Source: Desulfosediminicola ganghwensis
GTDB lineage: Bacteria; Desulfobacterota; Desulfobulbia; Desulfobulbales; Desulfocapsaceae
NCBI RefSeq assembly: GCF_005116675.2
Contig: NZ_CP050699.1
Coordinates: forward strand, 5,403,001 to 5,467,000
Length of the DNA stretch: 64,000 nt
Direction of reading: 5' to 3'
Of this stretch, positions 1,021-52,847 are shown one piece after another. Each line of letters begins with the position of its first letter. Position 1 is the stretch's first letter. The notes beneath the pieces are model-generated. The model saw only the letters and a list, made by a program, of their open reading frames with translations, was not told the origin of the DNA and searched no databases. A program made the translations under genes and the position numbers.

Positions 1021-1150
1021 TCGCTGTCAGCACAAGGCATATAAAATCAATGAGTAAAACTTCGATCAGTCATAACGTGATAGGGCCCCGACACGTAATT
1101 TTCGGATATAGTCGCCCTGCATTCCTTCCCTTCCGTTGACTACAAACAAA

Positions 1151-1184
1151 AAAAGCCCCATGGACCGAAGTCCATGGGGCTTTT
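1151..1184 (-). terminator. Intrinsic terminator of the cold-shock gene
   Basis: A perfect 15-bp stem (arms 1151-1165 and 1170-1184) closes a tetraloop that reads TTCG on the minus strand. It is followed on that strand by a T-rich run ending near 1144. It lies 27 bases beyond the stop codon of the cold-shock gene. The plus strand also has four T's after the stem, so it could weakly act on transcripts from the left-hand gene too. Confidence 0.85.
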
Positions 1185-1210
1185 ACAATCTACTCTAAAC
1201 GTAATCAGAA

Positions 1211-1411
1211 TTAGATCTGGGTAACGTTTGCAGCAGCAGGTCCTTTCTGACCCTGTACAACGTCGAAGGTTACGCGAGCGCCTTCTTCGAGGGTTTTGAA
1301 ACCGGTAGCATTGATTGCGGTGTGGTGTACGAACAGATCGTCGCCGCCATCCTGAGCAATAAAACCAAAACCTTTTGAATCGTTAAACCATTTTACTGTT
1401 CCTTCAGCCAT
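1211..1411 (-). CDS. CspA-family cold-shock protein
   Basis: Small single-domain nucleic-acid chaperone of 66 residues, the usual size of the family. It has the RNP1-type motif KGFGFI and the RNP2-type motif DLFVHH, both on the OB-fold surface that binds single-stranded RNA or DNA. The start was placed at the ATG preceding AEGTVKWF because a GGAGAAG ribosome site sits about six bases upstream; an upstream in-frame ATG at 1444 has no such site and would add a non-conserved leader. Monocistronic, with its own strong terminator. Whether it is cold-induced or constitutive cannot be told from the sequence. Confidence 0.93.
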
Positions 1412-1688
1412 GATACTTCTCCATAATGAAGTTCTTTGTTCCAAACCAAGGCAGAATCCATCATACTGAAAAAACAGTATAGTAATAAATTTCGCATCCT
1501 AAGTACTGAAACAGAGTAAGAGATAACTTTCTTACCTCTATTTAATATGAATAAGACGAAATGCCCTATCCATCTCTACTGTGCCGTCTCCCGATCCAAT
1601 ATGAACCAATCGATCATGCACCCTACCGACACTCTGTCGGAAATTTTTCGAGGGTTTACAGCTAAAAACCATCCTCCCTCTTTATATC

Positions 1689-1765
<77 letters not shown>

Positions 1766-1859
1766 TCATAGATTGTAGATGTGTAGTGCCAACAAAGACA
1801 ACACAGTCACGAGCGACATAATAACCAAACCAAAACAAAAAGCAACAGGTTCTTTTAAA

Positions 1860-30931: not shown

Positions 30932-31744
30932 ATGGCAGAGAAACAGCGACTTGGCGAACTCCTTATTCAACAGAAGATGGTGTCTAAAGACGTTGTCGAT
31001 GAAGCTCTGCGCCTGCAGGCCGGAGGGAACCGCAGGCTTGGGCATATCCTTGTTCGGATGAAAGCCATATCAGACGACCAGCTGGCGGAGACGCTCGCAG
31101 GTCAGCTGGGCACCACAATTTGTGATATCGACCAGAGTTACTCGCCCGAAGTAAAAAAAGTTTTACCCCGTTACCTGTGTCGCCAGTTCGGAGTGTTGCC
31201 ACTTTCCTTCCAGGATAACAACATCCTGAAGGTAGCCATGACCGATCCATCCGATCAGGAAACCATAAGCAACCTCGAGCATTACACCAATATGGCGGTG
31301 AAACCCGAGCTGGCACGTCACTCCGAAATCGACAGGGAAATCTCCAAACGCATACCTTTCGGCATCAAAGACCTGTTCTCACCGCAAGCCAGCAGCATAA
31401 TGACCCGGTCGATTGCGGCCGTGGCCCTTGTCTTTGCCCTTGGACTGGGATTTTATACCTACGATTACATAAAAAAAGTCAGAGAGGGAACCGTTTCCAT
31501 CACCAACGATATGGTGCTCTATCATCACCACGATCTGACCTTGGCACTGGATAAAGAGGGTACGTATTCCCTGCAGGGACACGGCACCTATGCCGGAGGA
31601 CTGTATAAGGCCAGTTTTAACAACCTGCAAGACCTGTCCGCCTTTATCGAGCGCCGTGCGCACGAACTGTCCGGCAAGCAAAAAGAGTGGTTGCAGTGGG
31701 CGGTCCCTCAGATAGAGGCCACACGGGCAGAAAGACAAAAGTAA
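30932..31744 (+). CDS. MshEN-type c-di-GMP-binding membrane protein
   Basis: Protein of 270 residues. Residues 6-58 hold two tandem 24-residue MshEN motifs. Motif one has R6-L7-G8, L11, L26 and Q29; motif two has R35-L36-G37, L40, L51, L55 and Q58. They are separated by exactly five residues, as described for the c-di-GMP-binding N-domain of MshE/GspE-type ATPases. The rest of the GspE N-terminal fold follows to about residue 130. There is no ATPase domain; instead one membrane segment (about residues 153-172, IAAVALVFALGLGFYTY) leads to a roughly 95-residue C-terminal domain, presumably periplasmic. GGAGG precedes the ATG. It sits between export and deacetylase genes, so it may relay c-di-GMP to polymer export. 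Confidence 0.82.
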   Translation: MAEKQRLGELLIQQKMVSKDVVDEALRLQAGGNRRLGHILVRMKAISDDQLAETLAGQLGTTICDIDQSYSPEVKKVLPRYLCRQFGVLPLSFQDNNILKVAMTDPSDQETISNLEHYTNMAVKPELARHSEIDREISKRIPFGIKDLFSPQASSIMTRSIAAVALVFALGLGFYTYDYIKKVREGTVSITNDMVLYHHHDLTLALDKEGTYSLQGHGTYAGGLYKASFNNLQDLSAFIERRAHELSGKQKEWLQWAVPQIEATRAERQK

Positions 31745-31784
31745 TGGCCCAGAATTAACACCATTCATTATCTTGGATAGACTT

Positions 31785-32663
31785 ATGGGACCAGTCTCTT
31801 TTACGGGGAAAAATATACTTCTTACCTTCGACGTTGAAGACTGGTTTCAAGTGGAGAATTTTAAATCGTATATCGATTATTCCTCCTGGCCCAGTCAAGA
31901 GCTTCGAGTGGGGAGAAACACCCATGAGTTGCTGAATCTGCTGGACGACTTCCAGACACCGGTACAGGCCACCTTTTTCATCTTGGGCTGGGTTGCCGAA
32001 CGCCGCCCCGACCTGGTACGGGAAATCCATAGCCGAGGGCATGAAGTGGCTTCCCATGGCTATGCCCACCAACTCTGTTATGAGCTGACAGAAGACGAAT
32101 TACGACAGGACCTGATTACCAGCAAAAAACTACTTGAAGACATTGTTGGCCATGCAGTCTCAGGATATCGTGCCCCGAGTTTCTCTATTTCGGACGAGGC
32201 CCTCAGTCTGGTTCGTGATGCCGGCTATCTTTATGACTCCAGCTATAATTCATATGAGGGCCATGGTCGTTATGGTTCCTGCACTTTGCCCAAAACCAGG
32301 AGCCCCGATCCTCCGCTCTACTCCATTTCTTCTTCATTTCACGAAATCCCGGTGAGCAATCTGCGCATCGGCCGAAAGCTGATTCCCTGGGGTGGTGGTG
32401 GATATTTCAGATTGCTGCCGGGACTTGTACACCAGGTCGGGGTAAAGCACATCCTGCGCAAGAGCGGCTGTTACACTTTTTACATGCATCCCTGGGAGAT
32501 CGATCCCGAACAGCCACGAGTAAAAGAAGCGAAAGCATCCTATCAGTTCCGACATTATGTCAACCTGAAAGGTGCAAAAGCGAAGTTGAAAAACTTTGTG
32601 AGATGTAATCGTAAGCATAGGTTTCTTACTTGCCGTGATTTTGTGCTATCGCAAAAAGGATAG
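31785..32663 (+). CDS. Polysaccharide deacetylase (exosortase/EPS-associated)
   Basis: NodB/CE4-type deacetylase of 292 residues with the C-terminal extension seen in exosortase-system members. The metal site motifs are present: TFDVEDWF near residue 17 and SHGYAHQ near residue 87 (H-x3-H), followed by GYRAPSFS. The substrate-pocket motif YMHPWEID is near residue 235. There is no signal peptide, as for others of this subgroup. ATG at 31785 is preferred over TTG at 31773; the ribosome site is weak. The stop codon TAG is also the first three bases of an IS256-type terminus, so the natural C-terminus may have been trimmed by the insertion. Confidence 0.9.
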   Translation: MGPVSFTGKNILLTFDVEDWFQVENFKSYIDYSSWPSQELRVGRNTHELLNLLDDFQTPVQATFFILGWVAERRPDLVREIHSRGHEVASHGYAHQLCYELTEDELRQDLITSKKLLEDIVGHAVSGYRAPSFSISDEALSLVRDAGYLYDSSYNSYEGHGRYGSCTLPKTRSPDPPLYSISSSFHEIPVSNLRIGRKLIPWGGGGYFRLLPGLVHQVGVKHILRKSGCYTFYMHPWEIDPEQPRVKEAKASYQFRHYVNLKGAKAKLKNFVRCNRKHRFLTCRDFVLSQKG

Positions 32664-35308: not shown

Positions 35309-35359
35309 ATTGTTTGGCAGTGCTCGCTTTTCGACGATATTGAATTGTAACGATCGGAG

Positions 35360-35683
35360 TAAGTCCGATTGTGATCCCCCCCAAAATTTCATCATAAACT
35401 TAAAGCACGGCAGCATCAGATAAACACACAGGCCACACCACGCTGTGTAATCACTGAATTTTGGGATGATTCAAGAAATGTTGTCACTTCGATATCTTAT
35501 TTGAAGCACTTGAAGAATAGTTCGATTTTCCACCGTTCTTTGTAAACCGCCACGCCCTCGGATGCTTTCAGTTTCCGGGTCAACAGGGATGATTCGGCGA
35601 AAAGTACACTTTACGTTTATCGAGACGATCGTGCCAATTGTACTTGGTGAAACCACGATCAGAGACAATGCAGGAGGTAGTGT
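35360..35683 (-). mobile_element. IS4-type transposase remnant, C-terminal part
   Basis: Minus-strand fragments: CIVSDRGFTKYNWHDRLDKRKVY, then WRFTKN, then a frame with KIELFFKCFK and TTFLESSQNSVITQ. They correspond to the DRG-x2-Y-x2-Y and ERW-x-IELFFKW-K-x2-L-x2-KTFLG blocks of IS4-type transposases that carry the DUF4372 N-domain. Several frameshifts and stops. Its N-terminal part lies at 36226-36720 beyond an inserted IS256-type fragment. Confidence 0.65.
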
Positions 35684-36225
35684 TCATAATTCTGTTTCAT
35701 CTTCCACAATGTTCATGTTTCTAGCCCGTCAGTGAGTTCCGCCGAAAGCCAACGTCGAGAATGGGCCTCACTAGCACTCGCCGGGGATGCTGGTTTTCAG
35801 CGAAACGGGTCGCTGTTAGGACGAAACCTGATTACCTGACATTAAAAGGATTTTCGAATAGCTATTGAGGTGAAGTTACATTATGTAATCTCCAGGCTAT
35901 GTCAGGTAATCACCGTACCCCTGACTAACTCCATACTCCTACCTAAATTGCCCACATAGTCAAATCCCTAAATCATTATCAAGTCCCCCCTCAAAGAAAA
36001 TAGCCAATTGAGAAAGGACCTGTGCCCAATCTCCTGCCCGGATATTTCAGGAGTCTGACAGACACGCCCGAAGGGTGAAACGTCAGACTCTGACCAGGGG
36101 GGCAAACTGTACCCTGAGAAATAGAGTTATTGTTTGACCTAAGTAACCGATACAATTGAGTCAAATGTCATTCACTCAAACATTTCGTGAAATATCCAGG
36201 CTGGGCATTCACGATTGCAAGGTGA
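35684..36225 (-). mobile_element. Second partial IS256-type remnant
   Basis: Diverged copy of the left part of the element at 32661-33120. It starts with TAGTGTTCATAATTCTG (versus TAGTGTCCAGAATTCTG) and shares blocks such as TTTCATCTTCCACAATG, GCCCGAAGGGTGAAACG and CCCTGAGAAATAGAGTTATTG in the same order. Only the non-coding end and a few codons of the transposase tail remain. It separates the two halves of an IS4-type remnant. Confidence 0.65.
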
Positions 36226-36720
36226 AGTAACTTCAGCTAACTCCCCAGATTCGGAAACGAGCCCTTTGTTTTGTGATACTTCGCCCAGGTAAACGCTGAT
36301 GGGCAAAAGTTTATTGTCGTTGCATAGAGTAGGTACCTCTGGCCTTTCAACTTGAAGCTGAGCTTACGTGCAATCACCTGGAATTTCCTGAGATGATTAT
36401 AAAGCCTCTCCTGTTACCTTTGGTATGGTTGCTCGCATCTACACGTGTCAGTGCCGCCCTGCTAATCAATTTCATCCCCAGATGGCACATGCGCTTTTCC
36501 TGGATGTGAGTTGAGCTATTGCCATCACAAAAAAACGTCCTTCCCCATTGAAGGAGCTGAAGCTCCGGTCACGATGAAATTTTTTGAGCACGTTTTTCAA
36601 AATCATGTCTCTGGACTAATAAAACGATCTGATCGAGAACCGTAGCGTAATGTGCCATAACTCGGATCTCCTTGATGTTGTTTTGTTCTATCGCACAGTC
36701 AAAATAGCACAAAAAGCACT
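36226..36720 (-). mobile_element. IS4-type transposase remnant, N-terminal part
   Basis: A minus-strand ATG at 36658 with AAGGAG upstream begins MAHYATVLDQIVLL and DFEKRAQK, then frameshifts, then LLYATTINFCPSAFTWAKYHKTKGSFP. The last block matches the conserved DSTTIDLCLS-x-FPWA-x-x-R-x-TKGA of DUF4372-bearing IS4-type transposases. The frame is lost several times. Confidence 0.65.
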
Positions 36721-36939
36721 CCGAGTCTTTTTTTGTGGTACCTGCCTAACCGGCTATGAGACCAATGCGATATGTGCTAAAATCAGATGAAGCCCCTGGT
36801 AATGAAGCATTATTTACATTCACAGACACTAGTTAGGTACGGTTTTTATTAGGATTACAACGTAGTCGCCGCTCTCATTTGTGCATAATCCCATTGCCGC
36901 GCATAAGTAGTGCCCATCCAGGAGTTAAAGGAGATGCAG
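36721..36939. other. Leader of the giant gene
   Basis: About 220 bases with no gene. It includes the ribosome site AAAGGAG at 36927-36933. No clear promoter pair was recognised. Confidence 0.35.
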
Positions 36940-39900
36940 ATGAATATCATACACCTATTTTCCAAGTGCTGTATCCTGCGGGGTGACACCTTGGTACAGG
37001 TGAGCAAAGCAAGCATGATCCATGATAGAGACAGGCTCAGGCATTGTCTTGGAATCACCCTCCTGATAGCTTGTCTTTTGGTTTCACTTCTCGGCTTTAC
37101 TGCAATAAAGATGGCGAATGCCCGCATTCTGACTGTTGCGGTCCTGATTGATTCCGGCAATATCGCCGGCTATAACGAAATTCCTTCAACCCCTGGTGAA
37201 TTTCAAAGATATCCGGAAAGGTACCTGGAGCATCTACAGGTTCCGTATGAAATCTTCGACGTATCGGCACAGGAGCCTCCTGCTGATCTGGCAGAGCGCC
37301 AGTTGATCCTCGTCGGTCATAAGGATGTCCTGTTGTCCTCTGCGTGGAGAGAAGGTATTGTCTCGGCGGTATTCGCCGGTTCGGGTCTGGTGAATCTCGA
37401 CTGGAACGAGAACATCGGCTTGGCATCCCATATTCAGCAAATTTTCGGGAGCTATGATTCTTTTCCCGACAATCCCGCTTCTACCATTACAGTCCCTTTT
37501 TCTATCACACCGGATGGCTCGGAACCACACTTCATAGCCGGATTACAGCGTAAATTTCTCGGCGATCCGTCGGGGGATTTCATTTACAATTTTCATGAGG
37601 ACGAAAGTGGACTGATTCAGGAATCTTCCGCGACAGTCCTGGCTGGGTCAACAGGCACCGTAATCGCCTATCTCGGCGCAGCTCCACTGATTACAGCAAC
37701 GAGCTACGGTCAGGGACGTGCGGTTCAATTTGGGACCCTTGAGTACCTGAAGGCGGATCGTTTCGGCTTTCTGATGGGCATCGACGATCTGTTCTGGCGA
37801 AGCTTGGTATGGGCCGCCAGGAAACCATTTATTCTACGTGGTTACCCCCGGATGTGGGCCATTCAGATGGATGATCAGAAAGCCGACTGGGGCTATCGCG
37901 TTAAGGACATGTATAACACCACGCTCACAGGCCCAGTCGACTCTACCGGCATCGGTGGTCCCTGGAAGCCAACCGGCTACATCATGTCATACATGCTCCG
38001 TGGAGATGAACGCAATTCGGTAATCGCTGACATAGAAGCTGGTTTACTGGAAATCTCTCCCCACTCCTTAAACCACGTTGAATACGGGGACTTTTTCTGG
38101 AATGGAAGCAACGGAGAACTCACCGATTCTCAGTGGGTTGCCAACCTTTCGGATTTTATTACCTGGGAAGAAGGGGACAGCTCAGTCCAACCGATCCCCT
38201 CGTTATCCCGATCAATGGTGGGCCACTTCTGGGATATAAGCGATAATATCGGCTATGACGCCTGGCATACTCTGGGGTTCAGGTACATTACTGCCATTCT
38301 CAGACCAGGCTTTCAGAATCCATGGTACGACCCGGATCTGTACGGCGGTTCCGAACGCTTGAGCCCACGTCCATTCTGGATTTATGAAAGGCCACCCAAA
38401 ACCACAGCGGATGAGGATTTTTCATTTTTCTTCGCTGACGATCTGATCATCAACAGCCGAGCAGGTTTCCCGGCACAGACCTTTTATCTGTTCACGACCC
38501 AGTTTCATGACTACTCCCTCTACAATCGTCCTGACATATCCTGGCCCGACGCCTATGCTTCTGACAACATGACCGCGGCTGAGAGTGTTGGCATGCATAC
38601 CCGTGCAACGTGGCGCTTCTGGTCATCTCTTGCCCCTTTTCAAGTCTACACCCATGACGGTAGTAACTATCAATATTCTTCAGTTGAGGATCGCCGCCAG
38701 GTTATCCAACAGGTTTCCAGCTGGTTGAGCCAAAATGGTGTCCGACACGTGTTCATGGACGAGATGGGAGATTACATTTATGCCCGGAACAACTCGATGC
38801 TGGAATCAGTCACCTCAGATAACAACATGCTAACCTGTTCCTTTAGCGGCACGACTGCGACGGCTGGTGGGACTCCGGTAGATACCGAGGTTCTGGTTTT
38901 CCCAGACCAGAACTCCCAGGGCACCTCTATCACCATACCCGCATTCAGCGAAGGTCAAACTCTGACAATTCCGATCACCCCTACCAATCCTCCCACAATA
39001 TCGGATGTAACCCCCAATCAAGGCACGATAGATGGCGGCACCCAAATCACCATCAGCGGGACCAACTTCCTCGCAGATGGTGAATTGAATATCACCGGAG
39101 TACTGATTGGTGGCAACTCCGCCACGGCCGTTACCGTCATCGATTCCAACACCATTACCGCGACAACACCGGCCGGGTCGACAGGCCCGGCAGATGTCGC
39201 CGTGCTCAGCACTGCAGGAACCGCCCTGCTCCAAAACGGCTTTTTCTATATCGGCGCACCGGTCATTACCTCATTGAGCCCGAATTCCGGTTCGGAAGAA
39301 GGCGGGACAACAGTAACCATCACCGGACAGGGATTCGAACCGGGCAGCACGGTACAATTTGGCACTACCCCGGCATTATCCGTCACATATGTTGGTGCCA
39401 CTCGGCTGGATGTCATCACTCCTGACGGCACAGCTGGCTTTGTTGATGTCTCTGTAAGTAACTCAGTCGGCAGCACGACCTACTCGGACGGCTTCCAGTA
39501 TATATCCCCAGGCAGTCTGCTCGCCTCTGATGACTTCAACGATGGCAACGCCGACGGCTGGACGATCTCGCCCCTCGGGGGAGCGGATGGCTGGAGCGTC
39601 ATCGATGGTGTTTACCATTATGACGGATCCGGTCACACGCAATCCTACAGCGGGGATGCAAACTGGGGCGACTACGTCCTGGACGTTAAATTCCGGTTAA
39701 GCACCTTGAGCGACTATCCGGGTGGCATCCGCGGCCGAGTCAACCCAGACACCGGCGCCGCCTACGCTGTCTGGCTCTACCCCGGGAGCGGCAAGATTGT
39801 TCTCTGGAAAACCACCGGCTGGAACATTGATAGTGCCGGCGTGAGCCAATTGGGCGTGGCTTCGGGAATTACTTTCGATACCACGCAGTTTCATCTGCTC

Positions 39901-42900
39901 AGTATGAGTTTCGAAGGAGATCAGATTACGGTTTCATATGATGGCGCACCCATCATCACCGCCACGGACGCAAGCTACGCCAACGGCCTGATTGCCCTGG
40001 ATGTGTCAAATCAGGCAATAGATTTCGATGATATCGTCGTCAACACCATCAGCTCGGGCGGGTCACCCACGTTGACAGGGCTTTCAGTCACGCCGGCCTC
40101 AGTTACATTCAGCCAACTCCTCGAAACGGCCCAACTCCAGGTGACCGGACAGTATAGCGATGGGAGCACCACCGACCTGACCAGCGACCCGGACACCAGT
40201 TACAGCTCCGGTAACACCAACGTGGTTACCACCACCAGCACCGGCCTGCTGACCGCTATCGCTGATGGCGATACCTCTGTTACCGTTGCCAACGGCACGG
40301 TATCCACTCTGGTACCGGTGACAGTAGCCACAATCCCTGCTCCACCCGAAATCCTTGGCGTCACTCCCACCTCCGGCCCGGTCGAAGGTGGCACGAACAT
40401 TGTGCTAACTGGCAGCAATTTTCTCTCCGACTCAACGGTTACGATTGGAGGTGCACTTGCCAGTGATATTGTTATCGTCGATTCAAACACCATCAACGCT
40501 GTTACACCGCCAGGTATTGAGGGAAGCGCCGATATAATCGTGACAACATCGGCCGGTTCTGCAACCCTGGCAGGCGGCTTCGCTTATACAGGTACGCCAC
40601 AACTCACCGAGCTGCAAGTGTCTCCCAGCTCGGTGAATCTCTCCACGATAGGTCAAACCCAGCAACTGGAGGTTACCGGCCTCTTCTCCGATGGCTCAAC
40701 CCAGCCCCTGACCAGCGATCCGGATACCAGTTACACCTCCGGCGGCACCAACGTGGTTACCACCACCAGCACTGGCCTGCTGACCGCTATCGCAGATGGC
40801 GATACTTCGGTTACCGTTGCCAACGGCACGGTATCCGTGCTGGTACCGGTTACCGTGAACACCTCCCCAACTCCACCTGAAATCCTTGGCGTCACTCCCA
40901 ACTCCGGCCCGATCGAAGGTGGCACGAACATTGTCATAACCGGTAACGGCTTCTTGTCCGACTCGACGGCTACGATCGGAGGCACCCTAGCCGGCGATAT
41001 CGTTGTTGTCGATTCAAACACCATCAACGCTGTTACACCGCCAGGTATCGAGGGGAGCGCCGATATAGTGGTAACCACATCAGCCGGTTCCGCGACCCTG
41101 ACAGATGGTTTTTCCTACACCACCGGCACAGGCGGTATCCTGTTCAGCGACGATTTTTCAGACGGAGATGATCTCGGCTGGACGATATCCCCACTTGGGA
41201 ACGAAGCAGGTTGGAGCGTCATTGATGGTGTATACCATTATGATGGATCCGGTCACACCCAATCCTACAGCGGTGATCCTACCTGGACCGACTATGTCCT
41301 GGACGTTAAATTCAAGCTAACCATCTTGAAAAACTACCCAGGTGGTATCCGAGGCCGGGTCGATCCGGACACCGGCACCTCTTATGCTGTCTGGCTCTAT
41401 CCGACCAGAAAGCAAATCATCCTTTGGAAAACCACCGGCTGGAACATTGACAGTTCCGGCCTAACCAGATTGGGCGTAGCTTCAGGGGTCAGCTTCGATA
41501 CCACGCAGTTTCATCTGCTGAGTATGGCCTTCGAGGGGGATCAGATCACGGTCTCATATGATGGCGATACCATCATCACCGTCACCGATGCAAGCTACGC
41601 TGGCGGCCTGCTTGCCCTGGATGTATCAAATCAGGCGATTGATTTCGATGATATCGTCGTCAAAGCAATCGGCTCAGGTGGGTCGCCGACGTTGACAGGA
41701 ATTTCAATAACTCCAGACTCAGTTACATTCAGCCAGCTCCTCGAGACAGCCCAACTCCAGGTGACCGGACAGTATAGCGACGGGAGCACCACCGATCTGA
41801 CCAGCGATCCGGAGACCAGCTACTCCTCCGGCAACACGGACGTGATCACAAGCAACAGCACAGGCCTGCTCACAGCTGTCGCGGATGGCGATACCTCGGT
41901 TACCGTTGCCAACGGCACCTTATCCGTGCTGGTGCCGGTTACCGTAGCCACCACCCCTGCTCCACCCGAAATCCTTGACATCAGCCCCTCCTCCGGCCCG
42001 GTCGAAGGTGGCACGGACATAGTGATATCCGGCACCAGTTTTCTCTCCGATTCAACAGTCACGGTCGGAGGCACCCTTGCCGGCAGCATTGTTGTTGTCG
42101 ATTCAAACACCATCAACGGTGTTACACCTCCGGGTACCGAGGGCAGTGCCGATATAGTGGTAACGACTTCGGCCGGCTCGGCCACCCTGGCAGGCGGCTT
42201 CTCGTACACAAGTACGCCTGAGCTCACCGAGTTGCAGGTGTCACCCAACTCGGTGACTCTATCCACGATAGGCCAGACCCAGCAACTGGAAGTTACCGGC
42301 CTCTTTTCCGATGGCTCCACGCAATCCCTGACCAGCGATCCCGAAACAAGCTACAGCTCAGGCAACATTAACGTGGTTACCACGACCAGCACCGGCCTGC
42401 TGACCGCTGTCGCAGATGGCGATACCTCGGTTACCGTTGCCAACGGCACCTTATCCGTGCTGGTGCCGGTGACCGTAGCCACCACCCCTGCTCCACCCGA
42501 AATCCTTGACATCAACCCCTCCTCCGGCCCGGTCGAAGGTGGCACGGACATAGTGATATCCGGCACCAGTTTTCTCTCCGATTCAACAGTCACGATCGGA
42601 GACGTACTTGCCGGCAGCATTGTTGTTGTCGATTCAAACACCATCAACGGTGTTACACCTCCGGGTACCGAGGGCAGTGCCGATATAGTGGTAACGACTT
42701 CGGCCGGCTCGGCCACCCTGGCAGGCGGCTTCTCGTACACAAGTACGCCTGAGCTCACCGAGTTGCAGGTGTCACCCAACTCGGTGACTCTATCCACGAT
42801 AGGCCAGACCCAGCAACTGGAAGTTACCGGCCTCTTTTCCGATGGCTCCACGCAATCCCTGACCAGCGATCCCGAAACAAGCTACAGCTCAGGCAACATT

Positions 42901-45900
42901 AACGTGGTTACCACGACCAGCACCGGCCTGCTGACCGCTGTCGCAGATGGCGATACCTCGGTTACCGTTGCCAACGGCACCTTATCCGTGCTGGTGCCGG
43001 TGACCGTAGCCACCACCCCTGCTCCACCCGAAATCCTTGACATCAACCCCTCCTCCGGCCCGGTCGAAGGTGGCACGGACATAGTGATATCCGGCACCAG
43101 TTTTCTCTCCGATTCAACAGTCACGATCGGAGACGTACTTGCCGGCAGCATTGTTGTTGTCGATTCAAACACCATCAACGGTGTTACACCTCCGGGTACC
43201 GAGGGCAGTGCCGATATAGTGGTAACGACTTCGGCCGGCTCGGCCACCCTGGCAGGCGGCTTCTCGTACACAAGTACGCCTGAGCTCACCGAGTTGCAGG
43301 TGTCACCCAACTCGGTGACTCTATCCACGATAGGCCAGACCCAGCAACTGGAAGTTACCGGCCTCTTTTCCGATGGCTCCACGCAATCCCTGACCAGCGA
43401 TCCCGAAACAAGCTACAGCTCAGGCAACATTAACGTGGTTACCACGACCAGCACCGGCCTGCTGACCGCTGTCGCAGATGGCGATACCTCGGTTACCGTT
43501 GCCAACGGCACCTTATCCGTGCTGGTGCCGGTGACCGTAGCCACCACCCCTGCTCCACCCGAAATCCTTGACATCAACCCCTCCTCCGGCCCGGTCGAAG
43601 GTGGCACGGACATAGTGATATCCGGCACCAGTTTTCTCTCCGATTCAACAGTCACGATCGGAGACGTACTTGCCGGCAGCATTGTTGTTGTCGATTCAAA
43701 CACCATCAACGGTGTTACACCTCCGGGTACCGAGGGCAGTGCCGATATAGTGGTAACGACTTCGGCCGGCTCGGCCACCCTGGCAGGCGGCTTCTCGTAC
43801 ACAAGTACGCCTGAGCTCACCGAGTTGCAGGTGTCACCCAACTCGGTGACTCTATCCACGATAGGCCAGACCCAGCAACTGGAAGTTACCGGCCTCTTTT
43901 CCGATGGCTCCACGCAATCCCTGACCAGCGATCCCGAAACAAGCTACAGCTCAGGCAACATTAACGTGGTTACCACGACCAGCACCGGCCTGCTGACCGC
44001 TGTCGCAGATGGCGATACCTCGGTTACCGTTGCCAACGGCACCTTATCCGTGCTGGTGCCGGTGACCGTAACCACCACCCCTGCTCCACCCGAAATCCTT
44101 GACGTCAACCCCTCCTCCGGCCCGGTCGAAGGTGGCACGGACATAGTGATATCCGGCAGCAGTTTTCTCTCCGATTCAACAGTCACGATCGGAGACGTAC
44201 TTGCCGGCAGCATTGTTGTTGTCGATTCAAACACCATCAACGGTGTTACACCTCCGGGTACCGAGGGCAGCGCCGATCTAGTGGTAACGACCTCGGCCGG
44301 CTCGGCCACCCTGGCAGGCGGCTTCTCGTACACAAGTACGACTGAGCTCACCGAGCTGCAGGTGTCACCCAGCCCGGTCAATCTCTCCACGATAGGCCAG
44401 ACCCAGCAACTGGAAGTTACCGGCCTCTTTTCCGACGGCTCCACGCAATCCCTGACCAGCGATCCGGAGACCGGTTACACCTCCGCCAACACGGACGTGG
44501 TCACCACCACCAGCACCGGCCTGCTGACCGCTGTCGCAGATGGCGATACCTCGGTTACCGTTGCCAACGGCACGGTATCCGTGCTGGTACCGGTGACCGT
44601 AACCACCACCCCTGCTCCACCCGAAATCCTTGACGTCAGCCCCTCCTCCGGCCCGGTCGAAGGAGGCACGGACATAGTGATAACCGGCAGCAGTTTTCTC
44701 TCCGATTCAACAGTCACGGTCGGAGGCACCCTTGCCGGCAGCATTGTTGTTGTCGATTCAGCCACCATCAACGGTGTTACACCTCCGGGTACCGAGGGCA
44801 GCGCCGATCTAGTGGTGACGACCTCGGCCGGCTCGGCCACCCTGGCAGGTGGCTTCTCCTACACAAGTACGCCTGAGCCCACCGAGCTGCAGGTGTCACC
44901 CAGCCCGGTCAATCTCTCCACGATAGGCCAGACCCAGCAACTGGAGGTTACCGGCCTCTTTTCCGACGGTTCCACGCAGTCCCTGACCAGCGATCCGGAG
45001 ACCGGTTACACCTCCGCCAACACGGACGTGGTCACAACCACCAGCGACGGCCTGCTCACCGCTGTCGCGGATGGCGAAACCTCGGTTACCGTTGCCAACG
45101 GCACGGTATCCGTGCTGGTGCCGGTTACCGTGGCCACCACCCCTGCTCCACCCGAAATCCTTGACGTCAGCCCCTCCTCCGGCCCGGTCGAAGGAGGCAC
45201 GGACATAGTGATAACCGGCAGCAGTTTTCTCTCCGACTCAACGGTTACGGTCGGAGGCACCCTTGCCGGCAGCATTGTTGTTGTCGATTCAGCCACCATC
45301 AACGCAGTAACACCGACAGGCACCGAGGGCAGCGCCGATCTAGTGGTAACGACATCGGCCGGTTCCGCAACCCTGGCAGGTGGCTTCTCCTACACAACTG
45401 GCACAGGCAATATCCTGTTCAGTGACAATTTCTCTGATGGAGATGCACTCGGCTGGACTATTTCCCCACTTGGAAATGAAGCAGGCTGGAGCGTCGTTTC
45501 AGGCAGCTACAGTTTTGACGGCAGCGGACATACGCAATCGTATACCGGGGATGCCGCCTGGCAGAATTATACCTTGCAGGTCGATTTTCAGCTTGATTCG
45601 CTGAGCAATTATCCGGGTGGAATCCGCGGGCGTATCGATCCAGCCACCGGTGCAGGATATGCGCTCTGGCTCTATCCGGCCGACGGTCGTATTATCCTCT
45701 GGAGGACAACTCAATGGCACGTGGACAGTCCGGGATTGGAGCAGCTGGCGAACGCATCAGGAATCAATTTCGGTGTCGGCACACAGCACACGATCGCCAT
45801 GAATTTTACTAACAACGTGATCGAGGTGTATTTTGACGGTGAACTCCAATTCACTGTGGTGGATGACACGCTCAGCTCCGGCTTGATCGCGTTGGATGTT

Positions 45901-45951
45901 TCTAACCAGCCAATCAGCTTCGATAATGTTGTCGTAACCTTGTCGCAATGA
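36940..45951 (+). CDS. Giant secreted protein: CE4-like deacetylase, IPT/TIG, Big_2-like and lectin-like domains
   Basis: Single frame of 3003 residues. Start at 36940 fits AAGGAG six bases upstream (ATG at 36934 and GTG at 36910 are alternatives). A hydrophobic signal or anchor lies at about residues 37-58. Residues 60-300 resemble a GATase1-like/ThuA-like fold. Residues 300-650 look like a NodB/CE4-type deacetylase: MDD at 310-312 and HSLNH at 375-379, the H-S/T-x2-H metal motif. Two IPT/TIG domains follow (about 684-860), a lectin/concanavalin-like domain (about 860-1035), two Big_2+IPT pairs, a second lectin-like domain (about 1398-1576), seven further Big_2+IPT pairs and a third lectin-like domain to the C-terminus. 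No PEP-CTERM or LPXTG tail. It probably binds and modifies matrix polysaccharide outside the cell (inference). Confidence 0.85.
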   Translation: MNIIHLFSKCCILRGDTLVQVSKASMIHDRDRLRHCLGITLLIACLLVSLLGFTAIKMANARILTVAVLIDSGNIAGYNEIPSTPGEFQRYPERYLEHLQVPYEIFDVSAQEPPADLAERQLILVGHKDVLLSSAWREGIVSAVFAGSGLVNLDWNENIGLASHIQQIFGSYDSFPDNPASTITVPFSITPDGSEPHFIAGLQRKFLGDPSGDFIYNFHEDESGLIQESSATVLAGSTGTVIAYLGAAPLITATSYGQGRAVQFGTLEYLKADRFGFLMGIDDLFWRSLVWAARKPFILRGYPRMWAIQMDDQKADWGYRVKDMYNTTLTGPVDSTGIGGPWKPTGYIMSYMLRGDERNSVIADIEAGLLEISPHSLNHVEYGDFFWNGSNGELTDSQWVANLSDFITWEEGDSSVQPIPSLSRSMVGHFWDISDNIGYDAWHTLGFRYITAILRPGFQNPWYDPDLYGGSERLSPRPFWIYERPPKTTADEDFSFFFADDLIINSRAGFPAQTFYLFTTQFHDYSLYNRPDISWPDAYASDNMTAAESVGMHTRATWRFWSSLAPFQVYTHDGSNYQYSSVEDRRQVIQQVSSWLSQNGVRHVFMDEMGDYIYARNNSMLESVTSDNNMLTCSFSGTTATAGGTPVDTEVLVFPDQNSQGTSITIPAFSEGQTLTIPITPTNPPTISDVTPNQGTIDGGTQITISGTNFLADGELNITGVLIGGNSATAVTVIDSNTITATTPAGSTGPADVAVLSTAGTALLQNGFFYIGAPVITSLSPNSGSEEGGTTVTITGQGFEPGSTVQFGTTPALSVTYVGATRLDVITPDGTAGFVDVSVSNSVGSTTYSDGFQYISPGSLLASDDFNDGNADGWTISPLGGADGWSVIDGVYHYDGSGHTQSYSGDANWGDYVLDVKFRLSTLSDYPGGIRGRVNPDTGAAYAVWLYPGSGKIVLWKTTGWNIDSAGVSQLGVASGITFDTTQFHLLSMSFEGDQITVSYDGAPIITATDASYANGLIALDVSNQAIDFDDIVVNTISSGGSPTLTGLSVTPASVTFSQLLETAQLQVTGQYSDGSTTDLTSDPDTSYSSGNTNVVTTTSTGLLTAIADGDTSVTVANGTVSTLVPVTVATIPAPPEILGVTPTSGPVEGGTNIVLTGSNFLSDSTVTIGGALASDIVIVDSNTINAVTPPGIEGSADIIVTTSAGSATLAGGFAYTGTPQLTELQVSPSSVNLSTIGQTQQLEVTGLFSDGSTQPLTSDPDTSYTSGGTNVVTTTSTGLLTAIADGDTSVTVANGTVSVLVPVTVNTSPTPPEILGVTPNSGPIEGGTNIVITGNGFLSDSTATIGGTLAGDIVVVDSNTINAVTPPGIEGSADIVVTTSAGSATLTDGFSYTTGTGGILFSDDFSDGDDLGWTISPLGNEAGWSVIDGVYHYDGSGHTQSYSGDPTWTDYVLDVKFKLTILKNYPGGIRGRVDPDTGTSYAVWLYPTRKQIILWKTTGWNIDSSGLTRLGVASGVSFDTTQFHLLSMAFEGDQITVSYDGDTIITVTDASYAGGLLALDVSNQAIDFDDIVVKAIGSGGSPTLTGISITPDSVTFSQLLETAQLQVTGQYSDGSTTDLTSDPETSYSSGNTDVITSNSTGLLTAVADGDTSVTVANGTLSVLVPVTVATTPAPPEILDISPSSGPVEGGTDIVISGTSFLSDSTVTVGGTLAGSIVVVDSNTINGVTPPGTEGSADIVVTTSAGSATLAGGFSYTSTPELTELQVSPNSVTLSTIGQTQQLEVTGLFSDGSTQSLTSDPETSYSSGNINVVTTTSTGLLTAVADGDTSVTVANGTLSVLVPVTVATTPAPPEILDINPSSGPVEGGTDIVISGTSFLSDSTVTIGDVLAGSIVVVDSNTINGVTPPGTEGSADIVVTTSAGSATLAGGFSYTSTPELTELQVSPNSVTLSTIGQTQQLEVTGLFSDGSTQSLTSDPETSYSSGNINVVTTTSTGLLTAVADGDTSVTVANGTLSVLVPVTVATTPAPPEILDINPSSGPVEGGTDIVISGTSFLSDSTVTIGDVLAGSIVVVDSNTINGVTPPGTEGSADIVVTTSAGSATLAGGFSYTSTPELTELQVSPNSVTLSTIGQTQQLEVTGLFSDGSTQSLTSDPETSYSSGNINVVTTTSTGLLTAVADGDTSVTVANGTLSVLVPVTVATTPAPPEILDINPSSGPVEGGTDIVISGTSFLSDSTVTIGDVLAGSIVVVDSNTINGVTPPGTEGSADIVVTTSAGSATLAGGFSYTSTPELTELQVSPNSVTLSTIGQTQQLEVTGLFSDGSTQSLTSDPETSYSSGNINVVTTTSTGLLTAVADGDTSVTVANGTLSVLVPVTVTTTPAPPEILDVNPSSGPVEGGTDIVISGSSFLSDSTVTIGDVLAGSIVVVDSNTINGVTPPGTEGSADLVVTTSAGSATLAGGFSYTSTTELTELQVSPSPVNLSTIGQTQQLEVTGLFSDGSTQSLTSDPETGYTSANTDVVTTTSTGLLTAVADGDTSVTVANGTVSVLVPVTVTTTPAPPEILDVSPSSGPVEGGTDIVITGSSFLSDSTVTVGGTLAGSIVVVDSATINGVTPPGTEGSADLVVTTSAGSATLAGGFSYTSTPEPTELQVSPSPVNLSTIGQTQQLEVTGLFSDGSTQSLTSDPETGYTSANTDVVTTTSDGLLTAVADGETSVTVANGTVSVLVPVTVATTPAPPEILDVSPSSGPVEGGTDIVITGSSFLSDSTVTVGGTLAGSIVVVDSATINAVTPTGTEGSADLVVTTSAGSATLAGGFSYTTGTGNILFSDNFSDGDALGWTISPLGNEAGWSVVSGSYSFDGSGHTQSYTGDAAWQNYTLQVDFQLDSLSNYPGGIRGRIDPATGAGYALWLYPADGRIILWRTTQWHVDSPGLEQLANASGINFGVGTQHTIAMNFTNNVIEVYFDGELQFTVVDDTLSSGLIALDVSNQPISFDNVVVTLSQ
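41690..45400 (+). repeat. Tandem 531-bp Big_2+IPT repeats inside the giant gene
   Basis: Seven consecutive 177-residue units, each a Big_2-like module (TELQVSP…VPVTV) plus an IPT/TIG module (PPEILD…GGFSYT). Units beginning near 42345, 42876 and 43407 look identical base for base over the stretches I compared; the outer ones differ at scattered positions. Two more units of the same type occur at 40060-41125. The length is a multiple of three, so copy number can change without breaking the frame. Confidence 0.9.
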
Positions 45952-46187: not shown

Positions 46188-47711
46188 ATGTCTATGAGAG
46201 TCTTTTTCCGACAACCGGGAACGATGATCGCTACGCTCATGATGTGTCAGTTAGCGCTGACACTGTATCTATCTTTCACGCTCAACATATGGGTTGACGA
46301 ATACTTTTCATTATTTGCCACCGAAGGCTCAATGAGAAGAGCCATCTGGCAATCTATTCACTTTGACTCTCAACCGCCGCTCTACTATTTTCTGTTGAAC
46401 TTGTGGCGAATGGGTGACAGTTCCGTACTATTTGCCCGGCTATTTTCCGTCATAAGTGTAGCTCTGGCCACATATATCATCTACCTTCTCGCCTGCCGCT
46501 TGTGGGGGCAGTCTAAGGTTCTGCCGTTCTTCCCAATCCTTGTACTAAACCCTTACTTGATCTGGGCAGCGAGCGAGATCCGACTCTACGGTTTCCTTTT
46601 ATTGGAATGCGCGCTGTTGATGTACTTTTTCCATAAAGCTTTTTTACATGATGATCGGCAGCACGCCACAAGGGACCGACTGGCCTTCTTTGCTTTGTCC
46701 CTGGCAATACTCTATACACAATATTATGCAGGATTTCTTCTGTTGGCCGGTGCTTTCGCATTAATGGTGCTGGGGCGTTGGCAGGAGTTAAAGGTGTATA
46801 TTGTTGGTATGCTGGTGGTTGGCATTCTCTTTCTGCCGATGATAGGCGTGCTCTCCGACCAGGTGCGCGAGGTCAGTCATACTGCCTCAGCAGCTGTTTC
46901 AGCACCGGGACTTACGGAAAGCGTGAAGCATGTGTGCTGGCTGCTTCAGGGATTGCTGTTTCCCGACAACGGAATTGCTGGTTGGGCGGCCGTGAAGGAT
47001 TGGATCGTTCTGCTGTTGGTGCTGTATCTGGTTTATCTGCTTGTGCGACACAAATCTTGTGTAATCACGCTTCCAAATATGTATTTGCTCACACTTTTGT
47101 TCGTACTAGCAGGCAGCTTCACCCTTATCTGCTGGAAACTTGGTATGTATTATACCCAGCGGCGTCATCTGGCCATACTGTTCTTTCCGCTTCTTGGTCT
47201 GTGGCTTGGTTATCTCTGCTCGATCAAGCAAAGGTGGCTTGGTTGGCTGCTTCTGGCAATATGCATGGCCACTTATGCGAATGCTCTCATGTATAAGTAT
47301 GTACCTCCGGTAAAGTACGGAGATTGGGAGCGGGTCGCCGGGCATATTTCCAGCTCAAGTCATTATAATGCCCCCATTCTGGTTTTTCGAAATACAGGCG
47401 CCTTGCCGTTCTCCACTTATTTCAAACCGACTGCCAATATCATTCCTGTACCGAATGCATTCGGCTTGGATCATTTTGATGCTCAATCTCCTGTTCTCAA
47501 GAGTGAACAATTACTTATCGAAATGGCAGAGAAGCTTGATAAATCTTCAAATCATTTCTGGCTGTTGACCTATGCAACTGGTTCTTGGCTCGGGGTTGAT
47601 ATCGGCGCGCGGTTTGTTGAACAATTTGTCGAAACACATTGCACAGTTATTGAGCAAAAGAAATTTGTTGGTACCAAGGTTCGTCTTGTCAGGTACAATC
47701 AGGCTCGTTAA
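46188..47711 (+). CDS. GT39/ArnT-like membrane glycosyltransferase
   Basis: Polytopic inner-membrane protein of 507 residues with about eleven membrane segments and a periplasmic C-terminal domain of about 110 residues. The first periplasmic loop has WVDEYFS (acidic catalytic-type residues) and DSQPPLYYFLLNLW, both typical of GT39/PMT_2-type enzymes that use polyprenyl-linked sugars. Donor and acceptor cannot be read. AAGAGG precedes the ATG. It stands alone between the giant gene and a convergent flippase gene, so it may glycosylate exported protein or polymer. Confidence 0.82.
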   Translation: MSMRVFFRQPGTMIATLMMCQLALTLYLSFTLNIWVDEYFSLFATEGSMRRAIWQSIHFDSQPPLYYFLLNLWRMGDSSVLFARLFSVISVALATYIIYLLACRLWGQSKVLPFFPILVLNPYLIWAASEIRLYGFLLLECALLMYFFHKAFLHDDRQHATRDRLAFFALSLAILYTQYYAGFLLLAGAFALMVLGRWQELKVYIVGMLVVGILFLPMIGVLSDQVREVSHTASAAVSAPGLTESVKHVCWLLQGLLFPDNGIAGWAAVKDWIVLLLVLYLVYLLVRHKSCVITLPNMYLLTLLFVLAGSFTLICWKLGMYYTQRRHLAILFFPLLGLWLGYLCSIKQRWLGWLLLAICMATYANALMYKYVPPVKYGDWERVAGHISSSSHYNAPILVFRNTGALPFSTYFKPTANIIPVPNAFGLDHFDAQSPVLKSEQLLIEMAEKLDKSSNHFWLLTYATGSWLGVDIGARFVEQFVETHCTVIEQKKFVGTKVRLVRYNQAR

Positions 47712-47791: not shown

Positions 47792-47974
47792 TTATAAAGA
47801 TGAATCCGACCAGGTTTCATCACGTTTTTGATAGTCACAAAAAACGATACCGACTCTTGGATGCCTCTCTATAAAACAGATCAGTTCACTACGGTAACGT
47901 TCAAGACTGGACTTGATTGAAAGAATGGCGTCATCCTGAACCTTTTTGACGATCTCTGTCTTGCGGTCTATCGT
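47792..47974 (-). pseudogene. Open coding-like stretch after the flippase gene
   Basis: A 60-codon minus-strand frame overlapping the flippase stop by a few bases reads like protein (KTEIVKKVQDDAILSIKSSL, IERHPRVGIVFCDYQKRDET) but has no ATG, GTG or TTG start and a stop immediately upstream. It might be the tail of a lost gene. Family not recognised. Confidence 0.25.
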
Positions 47975-49467
47975 CTAACCATACTAAGAAGCAGGTTCCT
48001 TTCCTTCCGGGAAAAAAAGAGAAAGGGAATGATAGATATATAAATTATTCCTGCCACTGTGGTAATTGCCATAATATCGAGATAGCTGGGCACGGTGAGC
48101 CGAGCCTGTGAGAGCCAGTAGGTAATGGCAAGGTAGAAAACGGAAAAACCGATGATGTTACCTAAACTGGTCAAATATTTCCAAAGCGGAAGGTCAATTT
48201 GCCGGCAAGCGTACACCGGAACAAAAAAGATGCGTGCTACCAGCAGTGGAATTGCAGTAGCTACAGCAACCCCTAAAATCCCATATCGATGGATGAGGAT
48301 AAGACTTAACATGAGATTCACGACACCTTCAACACTGTTCAATATGGCCAGAAATCGATGGCGATTGATCGCATATAACAGGTTATCAAGTGGATTTACT
48401 ATAATTTGCACCATTATGGCGAGCATCAAAGTTATGAGTACCGGATAGGCATCTGTGTAATCGGTCCCCATCCACTTGATAATGAATGCCTTGCCTACAA
48501 TGATGATTATCCCTCCTCCGAAAATGGCAAGAATGGTGTTGATGCGAGTGACAAACAACAATTTTTCCCGAATAGCGGCCTTGTCGTTTCGCGCGTGATA
48601 TTTGGTGAACACGGGGGTCATCATATTGGTAGCCTTATAAACCAAGGTCCGAAAGTATTCCACCAAACGGGCACCAATAAAATAGTGGGTCACAGCTGAG
48701 GCTGAAAGGATACCTCCAATAACCAATGAATCAACACGGAACCGCATTTGATTGGCTATCTGGGTCAAGAAGGCCCAAATACTATAGGTAAAGAGTTCTT
48801 TTACTTCGGATTTTCGGAAAAGTCGGATATCGATTTTTAGTTTTTTGAACAAATGCTTTGCCACGAAAAAGAACATGACATTACAGAGCTGGTTGGAAAA
48901 AAGAGAGATTATAGATAAGGTCAGAATGCCATAGCCGTGGCTAAGAAAATACAACACAGCCATTGTTCTTAAACTAAAGGAAATGAAGTGGGAATAGGTA
49001 AGTAGATCATAGCGGAGGTAGGCCTGAATGATTCCAGCAAAGGCCTTGAAGGGAAACTCAAGGGCCATGTTGAGGCCCATGACCACGATAATTATCCTGA
49101 TCAGACGCAATTCCTCGGGCGAGGCAACAAACACAGTGGTAAAGAATGCAATGATAGCCGCTACAACCAGGATCAATACTGCTATAAGGCTATAAATCAC
49201 CAAAGAGGTATTGATAATGATGTTGGCTTGCTCGTATTTCTGTTTTTCAATGGAGGTCGTGACATACCGGGTGACGGCAAAAGCCAGACCGAAATCGAGA
49301 ATATAATAGTAACTGGCGAAACTACCGAGAATAACCCAGATACCGTACCAATGGTCCCCCAACTGGCCCACGATGAACGGCATCATGATAAATGACACGA
49401 CAATATTGAAGATCAAAAAGAGGGTTCTCGCAACCGAGCTGATAAAGAGTGTTCGGGGAATATTCAT
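47968..49467 (-). CDS. Polysaccharide flippase (MOP/Wzx-like)
   Basis: Inner-membrane protein of 499 residues with twelve to fourteen membrane segments, of the oligosaccharidyl-lipid flippase family. The N-terminal pattern SSVARTLFLIFNIVVSFIMM followed by GLAFAVTRYV is characteristic. It should flip undecaprenyl-linked oligosaccharides to the periplasmic face. It is transcribed against the surrounding glycan genes. No strong ribosome site precedes the ATG. Confidence 0.88.
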   Translation of the reverse strand: MNIPRTLFISSVARTLFLIFNIVVSFIMMPFIVGQLGDHWYGIWVILGSFASYYYILDFGLAFAVTRYVTTSIEKQKYEQANIIINTSLVIYSLIAVLILVVAAIIAFFTTVFVASPEELRLIRIIIVVMGLNMALEFPFKAFAGIIQAYLRYDLLTYSHFISFSLRTMAVLYFLSHGYGILTLSIISLFSNQLCNVMFFFVAKHLFKKLKIDIRLFRKSEVKELFTYSIWAFLTQIANQMRFRVDSLVIGGILSASAVTHYFIGARLVEYFRTLVYKATNMMTPVFTKYHARNDKAAIREKLLFVTRINTILAIFGGGIIIIVGKAFIIKWMGTDYTDAYPVLITLMLAIMVQIIVNPLDNLLYAINRHRFLAILNSVEGVVNLMLSLILIHRYGILGVAVATAIPLLVARIFFVPVYACRQIDLPLWKYLTSLGNIIGFSVFYLAITYWLSQARLTVPSYLDIMAITTVAGIIYISIIPFLFFSRKERNLLLSMVRR

Positions 49468-51044: not shown

Positions 51045-51185
51045 ATTTGCACTACAATCCTTTCTCTTTTAAACATAACAGGATTCGGAGGATTTTCAGT
51101 CTGCCTAGGCATTCTTACCCCAAAATAGCCAAGCAGAAGAGAATTACCGAGATACTTGATAGCAATATACGGTCAGGGGGGTAAA

Positions 51186-52847
51186 ATGGATACAATATCA
51201 GATTATAAACTACCTTCGGTGGCAGTTATCGGAACTGGATACTGGGGAAAAAATCTCGTCCGTAATTTTCACCAGCTCGGAGCGTTGAAGCTCATCTACG
51301 ACAAGAGTGTGCCGGTACTCAGTTCACTCAAGGAGCAGTATAGTGGTGTAGACACCTGCCGCTCCTTAAACCAAGTGTTGGAGCGTGAAGATATCCAGGG
51401 CATAGTCATTGCCACTCCGGCTGAAACCCATTTTCAGGTGGCGCACAAAGCACTGCTCGCCGGCAAACATGTTCTTATTGAAAAACCGTTGGTATTACAC
51501 GAAGCGGAAGGCATAAAACTTATAAAAATAGCGCAAGACAAGGGGCTCACCCTCATGGTCGGCCACCTTTTGCAATACCATCCAGCCTTTATCAAACTCA
51601 AAGACATGGTTATGTCCGGCGATTTGGGACGCGTGGATTACATTTATTCCAACCGGCTTAATTTTGGCAAAATTCGTCGTGAAGAGAACATCCTCTGGTC
51701 ATTTGCACCGCACGATATATCTATGATTCTATCGTTGTCAGGAGAGGAACCGGAAAACATCATGACAACAGGCGGATATTACCTGCATCAACGTATTGCC
51801 GATGTCACGACAACTCATTTCGGATTTGCCAGCGGCCTGAATGCTCACATTTTTGTATCCTGGCTCCACCCTTTTAAGGAGCAGAAGCTGGTGGTTGTAG
51901 GCGAAAGGAAGATGGCGGTGTTTGACGACACCAAGCCCTGGCCTGACAAACTTCTCACCTACCCCCATCAGATGCAATGGGTAAATGGATTTCCCACACC
52001 GGAAAAAGCGGAAGCGGAACGGGTGGATATTCCGCAGGATGAACCATTGCGTCGTGAGTGCATCCACTTTCTGGAATGTATTGCCACCGACAAACAGCCG
52101 ATTACTGATGGGTACGAAGGGCTTCGGGTATTACGTATTCTGAACGCAAGTCAACGCTCACTGGATGAGCATGGGCAAAAGGTACGTATAGACGGCACGC
52201 TGGTGGTAAGAGAACGCAGAGCCTCCGACCGGCTACGAAACCTTTCCTCCATGCACACCACAACTGGCGATATCCAGGTCCATGAAACAGCTATCATCGA
52301 TGAGGGGGTCGAGATAAGCAACGGAACAAAAGTATGGCATTTTTCCCATATACTATCTGGATCAGAAGTTGGCGAACAGTGCAATATCGGACAAAATGTG
52401 GTGATCGGCCCTGATGTCAAAATAGGAAAAGAATGCAAAATTCAGAACAACGTATCCGTCTACAAAGGAGTCACTCTCGAAGACGGTGTATTTTGTGGAC
52501 CTTCCATGGTCTTTACCAACATTACCAATCCTCGGGCCGAACTCTCCAAAATGGATCAGGTAAAACCCACATTGATCAAGCAGGGGGCGACCATAGGCGC
52601 CAATGCTACCGTCGTCTGCGGTAACGTCGTTGGTCGCTACAGTTTTGTCGGGGCAGGTGCGGTGGTCACTCGTAAAGTCCCTGATCACGCTCTGGTTGTC
52701 GGCAATCCTGCCAAGGTAATCGGGTGGGTGTGCAAATGCGGCGAAAGACTTGCTGAAGATTTCGCATGCAGTTTCTGTAACAAAAAATACGATCAAACGT
52801 CAGAAGGGTTACAACTCACGGCGCCTGATCATCTTGTCGTTAATTAG
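51186..52847 (+). CDS. Fused Gfo/Idh/MocA dehydrogenase and hexapeptide N-acetyltransferase
   Basis: Protein of 553 residues combining two enzymes. Residues 1-330 are a Gfo/Idh/MocA oxidoreductase: [14 protein letters not shown] for NAD binding, IEKPL, and [11 protein letters not shown] in the substrate site, resembling WbpB/WlbA. Residues 350-530 form a left-handed beta-helix acyltransferase ([42 protein letters not shown]) resembling WbpD/WlbB. The end carries a small zinc-ribbon-like CKCG…CSFC. Together these match oxidation and acetylation steps toward UDP-2,3-diacetamido uronic acid; the aminotransferase step (WbpE) is not in view. ATG at 51186 with AGGGGGG upstream is chosen over a TTG at 51156. 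Confidence 0.88.

Follow-up and report, generated by a model that had tools for sequence, protein, structure and literature searches.

The window, a 64,000-nucleotide stretch of Desulfosediminicola ganghwensis DNA, encodes a giant protein of 3003 residues (36940-45951, plus strand) whose head is, fairly probably, a very divergent deacetylase of the Agd3/PelADA kind. Carried on a sugar-binding stalk, it would edit a polymer of hexosamines at the cell surface or in the matrix. A preliminary description of this DNA had called the head a NodB/CE4 polysaccharide deacetylase. The deacetylase part of that assignment is kept on the strength of a DD...H[ST]xxH layout, but no CE4 model matches the head. 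The best reading is a metal-dependent deacetylase head, lying behind a ThuA-like region and mounted on lectin-like and Ig-like modules. That the head is a deacetylase is likely, and likely not one that belongs to CE4.

The open frame runs from a GTG at 36910 to 45951 on the plus strand and translates to 3013 residues. The ATG at 36940 is preceded, across a six-base gap, by AAAGGAG, which gives the 3003-residue reading used here; a second in-frame ATG lies at 36934. In the 3003-residue numbering, the MDD at residues 310-312 and the HSLNH at 375-379 stand exactly where they had been placed beforehand. Among the first 90 windows of the 3013-residue frame, hydropathy above 1.5 is confined to residues 42-71, and no stretch further along the giant protein exceeds 1.8. 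The single hydrophobic stretch, followed by ANA-R, suggests an N-terminal signal peptide or membrane anchor (36940-37125, plus strand), the cleavage site being a predicted one, and the protein is probably exported.

Three parts can be proposed for the head, all on the plus strand. Residues 63-298 (37126-37833) would form an alpha/beta ThuA/GATase1-like domain, a candidate CBM like CBM87 or CBM114, assigned by a ThuA score and by the alignment of RYLEHLQVPYEIFD. Residues 299-618 (37834-38793) are a candidate NodB-like carbohydrate esterase domain, as judged by motif layout, histidine alignment and conservation in Desulfopila. Its candidate catalytic residues are D311, D312, H375, H379 and H572, together with R477, which sits in SPRPFWIY and is a candidate for the CM3 arginine by its spacing. 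MDD (37867-37875) is the candidate CM1/MT1 motif, supplying base and metal ligand, and HSLNH (38062-38076) the candidate metal-binding HxxxH of CM2/MT2. H572, in VYTHDGSNY (38653-38655), is the candidate catalytic acid (CM4/MT5), selected by alignment to the CM4 histidine with both hhalign and MAFFT; because the alignments chose H572, an earlier candidate for the acid, H523 in TQFHD, was dropped. Residues 619-682 (38794-38985) would end the head as a small domain, predicted to be beta-rich from hhalign co-linearity with the C-terminal domain of Agd3 homologues. AlphaFold models of the head and of the esterase part, each built from a two-row alignment, both had a pLDDT of 31.

The preliminary description had also proposed a GATase1/ThuA-like region in front of the catalytic part, and this is borne out in one comparison but not in others. 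The ThuA domain of locus L034 resembles the front of the head with z = 3.6 and 4.0 (5 and 1 of 500 shuffles), whereas two other GATase1-like sequences (L035, L036) show no similarity to it. A ThuA set of three sequences gave no significant hhalign match to the head, a comparison that carries no weight because one of the three (L037) was in the wrong frame. L034 itself, from a genome of the same order (G077), is another giant protein: its ThuA-like domain, at positions 283-3567, lies in an open frame of 8605 residues.

The NodB motifs MT1 (DD) and MT2 (H[ST]xxH) are present in the head in the right order. To judge how often such a layout arises by chance, we shuffled the two available heads, that of the window and that of Desulfopila, 20,000 times. 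We found a DD with an H[ST]xxH 45-150 residues further on in 1.4% of the shuffles for one head and 1.6% for the other. The layout is likewise uncommon in unshuffled sequence: of 111 open frames at least 300 residues long, two carry it, namely the window protein and L019, which by eye is an evident CE4 protein by its TFDD and HTHTH. This pool was drawn mechanically from the window and the collected loci other than the head's own loci, the CE4 loci and the Agd3 set, and some of its frames are not genes. An extended pattern, with PR and a late HxxN-like motif added, occurs in 0.03% of shuffles, a figure for a pattern composed after the sequence had been viewed.

Searches with family models did not place the head. 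A Pfam scan of the head and its sub-domains, at E values up to 10, gave no match to CE4/NodB, Agd3_CE, CBM87 or any other model, and an NCBIfam scan of the 620-residue head at E 0.01 gave none either. A PDB sequence search returned chance matches only (RBM39 at E 0.56, or worse); the Agd3 entry 6NWZ is in the copy searched, yet the head did not match it. The same search gave no match to PelADA, with the presence of its entry 9ZAU in that copy unchecked. PF25115, searched on the own genome, did not match the head; across 395 genomes it gave weak matches in 25, none above the cut-off, and the one of these that was inspected was again L019. PF09960 (DUF2194) matched none of 117 genomes at E 1e-4, and its 16-bit match in the own genome lies elsewhere than the head. 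Nor was the head recovered with the Agd3 homologue set, either in the own genome at E 1 or among 163 genomes, five of which had weak matches. Because the head fails the sequence models of both CE18 and CE4, we assign it to neither.

Two characterized enzymes appear to offer a closer architectural match. Agd3 of Aspergillus fumigatus (CE18 + CBM87) consists of a GATase1/ThuA-like CBM, a NodB-like esterase and a beta-rich domain (PMC7229062), and PelADA of Bacillus cereus (CE26 + CBM114) of an alpha/beta/alpha CBM resembling that of Agd3, an esterase and a beta-rich domain (PMC13254593). Both esterases are described as having an Asp-Asp pair, HxxxH, a late arginine and a late histidine (PMC7229062, PMC13254593). 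In PelADA the metal ligands are the second Asp and two His, joined in one chain by the late His; the base is the first Asp and the acid the late His (PMC13254593), and Agd3 is described in similar terms (PMC7229062). The head would have the same order as Agd3 (PMC7229062), a ThuA/GATase1-like domain, then the esterase, then a beta-rich part, as judged for the head by motif and length. From H379 to R477 there are 98 residues, a spacing similar to the 99 from H514 to R613 in Agd3 (PMC7229062). It would likewise share with PelADA the three-domain order, the HxxxH and, with its candidate R477 and H572, the late arginine and histidine (PMC13254593). Because of the ThuA-like front, the small beta-rich rear and the late histidine, the three-domain plan appears to fit CE18/CE26 better than CE4.

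The head has no HMM- or BLAST-detectable similarity to Agd3, the gap from DD to HxxxH is 62 residues in the head but over 120 in Agd3, and the giant repeat stalk is absent from Agd3. No pel gene, pelF included, and no GH114 gene was found among the 20 window proteins scanned, which include the flanking neighbors and none before 23.7 kb, whereas 6 of 10 bacterial Agd3 homologues have PelF or an endo-alpha-1,4-polygalactosaminidase annotated beside them. PelADA, unlike the window protein, is described as a 610-residue single-pass membrane protein encoded in a pel operon (PMC13254593). The deacetylase domain of PelA (CE21) has, as proposed for the head, a ThuA-like mixed domain beside the CE barrel, but PelA carries an additional hydrolase domain and belongs to the Pel system (PMC12022489). 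Agd3, PelADA and PelA are all described as compact enzymes (PMC7229062, PMC13254593, PMC12022489). Literature searches returned no paper that, judged by its title or the opening of its abstract, deals with a deacetylase of this kind mounted on TIG and Big_2 modules.

We therefore compared the head with bacterial homologues of Agd3. Motif peptides led to 6NWZ, and Agd3 stretches from this entry led to homologues in Burkholderia stagnalis, one of which led in turn to others on plasmids of Deinococcus, Thermus, Kocuria and Streptomyces, ten in total. Five of the ten were scanned with Pfam: Agd3_CE was listed in all five (three above the cut-off) and CBM87 in four (two above the cut-off), the remaining one having no CBM87 match. 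The homologues on the Thermus, Kocuria and Streptomyces plasmids (L105, L106, L107, L108) adjoin pelF and are annotated merely as hypothetical proteins.

Nine of the ten, the tenth being a near duplicate, were aligned with the head by unguided MAFFT. In three strategies, H375 and H379 fell on the two HxxxH columns and H572 on the CM4 column, so that the HxxxH and the late acid histidine share alignment columns with the Agd3 homologues, and a VPY in the first domain of the head was matched to the same motif in theirs. All twelve settings tried matched five of the six catalytic columns, with the three histidines always among them. All three histidines were recovered in 0 of 100 column shuffles and in 2 of 80 control frames, one of which (L044) is a CE4 locus. 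At least four of the six catalytic matches were found in 7 of the 80 controls, namely four CE4 loci (L050, L051, L046, L044) and three frames that are not (L030, L026, L069); five matches were reached by three controls, all CE4 loci. Controls were single sequences, whereas the head was entered as two rows, both of which had to match. These counts indicate that the MAFFT test responds to true deacetylases, yet gives some false alarms. The CM3 arginine, R477, was unaligned in the MAFFT runs with the Agd3 homologues. In greedy mode hhalign placed MDD on the VDD of the homologues, but in MAFFT and in subregion hhalign it is D282/D283, not D311/D312, that occupy the DD column, and only the three histidines are therefore firm.

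Against the ten-row Agd3 set, hhalign scored the head at 25.3 (E 0.042), a value exceeded by 2 of 100 shuffles and not significant; H572 lies on the CM4 histidine, and the alignment spans from before H572 to near the ends of both proteins. When subregions were compared, RYLEHLQVPYEIFD aligned with the same place of the ThuA-like domain in the Agd3 homologues and no shuffle out of 150 scored as high. The subregions around CM1, CM2 and CM4 were not significant, since their scores were equalled or exceeded by 85, 113 and 21 of 150 shuffles, respectively. Against 15 CE4 sequences the top local hhalign alignment falls on the HxxxH (2 of 60 shuffles higher, not significant). Pairwise scores did not rise above background for an Agd3 fragment or for 21 CE4 proteins, with the exception of one CE4 protein at z 2.9, for the window row only of the two. 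The probable kinship with Agd3 is drawn from motif layout and not from structural or evident sequence resemblance.

The sole relative in the collections searched, found among genome contigs, belongs to Desulfopila sp. IMCC35006, also of the Desulfocapsaceae. Its head is 71% identical, both motifs are present, and D311, D312, H375, H379, R477 and H572 are all unchanged. The Desulfopila protein has 1853 residues and a shorter stalk; the final 190 residues of the two proteins are 67% identical, whereas identity in the signal region drops to 25%. With the own genome counted, the head is present in two of 97 near relatives and in two of the 257 genomes searched from the class; G059, the second genome, matches Desulfopila in the part that was inspected by eye. 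In the sample of the phylum there were matches in 2 of 395 genomes, of which only that of the own genome is genuine; the other (G263, 1.9e-6) falls over ligA on the opposite strand and was rejected. Viral contigs, plasmids and phages yielded no match to the head. At E 10 the own genome holds the head itself and one match at E 0.27 that contains stops. A lenient search with the esterase part gave matches in 30 of 395 genomes, own included, and three that were inspected as possible relatives are unrelated proteins.

Beyond the head, Pfam finds 11 TIG, 9 Big_2 and 3 PF06439 (LamG-like) stretches, in agreement with the lectin-like and Ig-like modules described for the remainder of the protein. The LamG-like modules lie at 39529-40068 and 41149-41688, both with approximate ends, and, C-terminally, at 45424-45948, all on the plus strand. 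Five Big_2+TIG units of 531 bp each occupy 42223-44877 (plus strand). Those starting at 42223, 42754 and 43285 are identical at the DNA level, and the fourth and fifth are 98.7% and 92% identical to these three. Identity to the other units is 76-83% for two more, at 40072 and 40603. Tandem Repeats Finder, whose longest period of 500 is below the 531-bp unit, reported nothing. Identical units point to recent duplication or homogenization, and, given this identity, stalk length likely varies between strains. With three identical units in 42223-44877, the assembled number of units may be unreliable. The same segment contains antisense open frames of 166 residues at the spacing of the 531-bp unit.

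The head gene also has a shared neighborhood. Downstream lie a gene for a GT-C membrane glycosyltransferase (46188-47711, plus strand), PMT_2-like and just below the Pfam cut-off, and a gene for a MOP-family flippase (47968-49467, minus strand), identified by family models and by its identity to the Desulfopila protein. The GT-C gene adjoins the head gene in Desulfopila too, where its product is 57% identical, and the flippase is 68% identical to that of the Desulfopila locus; the head gene, GT-C gene and flippase are therefore grouped in both genera. On the other side, the giant gene starts about 1.6 kb past an exosortase/DUF3485 pair. It had been described as adjacent to an exosortase/EPS locus, which its position bears out, but no PF07589 was found in the Pfam scan and inspection of the C-terminus of the giant protein showed no PEP-CTERM signal, so these results provide no link to the exosortase. 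The intervening 35320-36900, about 1.5 kb between the DUF3485 and giant genes, contains no ORF of at least 120 residues and may, as an impression only, hold worn mobile-element remnants. The same locus encodes at 31773-32663 a polysaccharide deacetylase of the XrtA system (TIGR03006, above cut-off). It is NodB-type by family, the type proposed for the head, but is a canonical CE4 protein of 296 residues without a stalk, and the two are distinct as had been proposed.

In the mechanism we propose, the ThuA/GATase1-like domain would bind and guide the polymer. By analogy with PelADA and Agd3, D312, H375 and H379 of the NodB-like domain would hold the metal, D311 would act as base and H572 as acid, and R477 is the candidate for the arginine that would orient the base. 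Exported and carried on the TIG/Big_2 stalk, with the three LamG-like modules binding sugar, the head would act at a distance from the membrane, de-N-acetylating a polymer of hexosamines on the cell surface or in the matrix. Recombination between 531-bp units may alter the length of the stalk. As for the substrate, the window encodes WecB / UDP-GlcNAc 2-epimerase, which scores above its cut-off, and a UDP-GlcNAc 3-dehydrogenase-like protein, which scores below, so that local production of N-acetylated sugars is probable; other products of the window include an initiating sugar transferase, glycosyltransferases and an export protein. A polymer containing N-acetyl hexosamines is thus the probable substrate.

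The motif layout could be coincidental, and the head a new domain without kinship to these enzymes, such as a glycosidase or a different hydrolase that follows a GATase1-like domain. Homology to the deacetylase families is undetectable, profile scores are near background, the layout turns up in about 1.5% of shuffles, and one control frame outside the CE4 loci also recovers the three histidines. However, these histidines and the VPY segment are recovered co-linearly and the layout occurs in none of the other 109 frames, and we find coincidence unlikely. A head with an Agd3-like fold could also have lost its activity through decay of the catalytic site and now serve an adhesin by binding sugar. 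The TIG, Big_2 and LamG-like modules that make up the remainder of the protein would suit an adhesin, and neither the CM3 arginine nor the CM1 register is confirmed by alignment. Against decay, the acidic pair and all three histidines are unchanged across two genera at 71% identity, and we consider a non-enzymatic head distinctly unlikely.

Were the head an active deacetylase, it might still be of the CE4/NodB or PelA (CE21) type rather than like CE18/CE26. The hhalign alignment to the CE4 HxxxH is in keeping with this, as is the ThuA-like mixed domain that likewise stands beside the PelA deacetylase (PMC12022489). CE4 models, however, match the 31.8-kb gene and not the head, the ThuA-like part opens the head and leaves no space in front of it for the hydrolase domain of PelA, and the domain order and length are those of Agd3 and PelADA. 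We find this alternative very unlikely. A further question, compatible with our main reading of the head, is whether the protein is anchored in the inner membrane and edits its polymer in the periplasm during export. Its single N-terminal hydrophobic helix and a C-terminus without PEP-CTERM agree with this, and PelADA is membrane-anchored (PMC13254593). Such an enzyme would nevertheless trail a stalk about 2300 residues long that carries lectin-like modules, and we regard a periplasmic location as doubtful. Long lectin-bearing stalks of this size are typical of surface or secreted proteins.

If the head is indeed an Agd3/PelADA-kind deacetylase, the ThuA-like/NodB-like kind of deacetylase would extend to matrix-bound editing, in the Desulfocapsaceae and near an exosortase/EPS locus, and the deacetylase family would be wider than its sequence models. 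More tentatively, the protein might found a new family of carbohydrate esterases, as an Agd3/PelADA-type enzyme at the tip of a lectin stalk tuned by recombination for editing the matrix at a distance.

Two other genes of the window deserve mention. A single frame at 51156-52847 fuses UDP-GlcNAc 3-dehydrogenase-like and acetyltransferase-like parts. Directly before the XrtA-system deacetylase, 30932-31744 encodes a 270-residue protein with an MshEN-type c-di-GMP-binding domain, a neighbor through which c-di-GMP could control the EPS locus.
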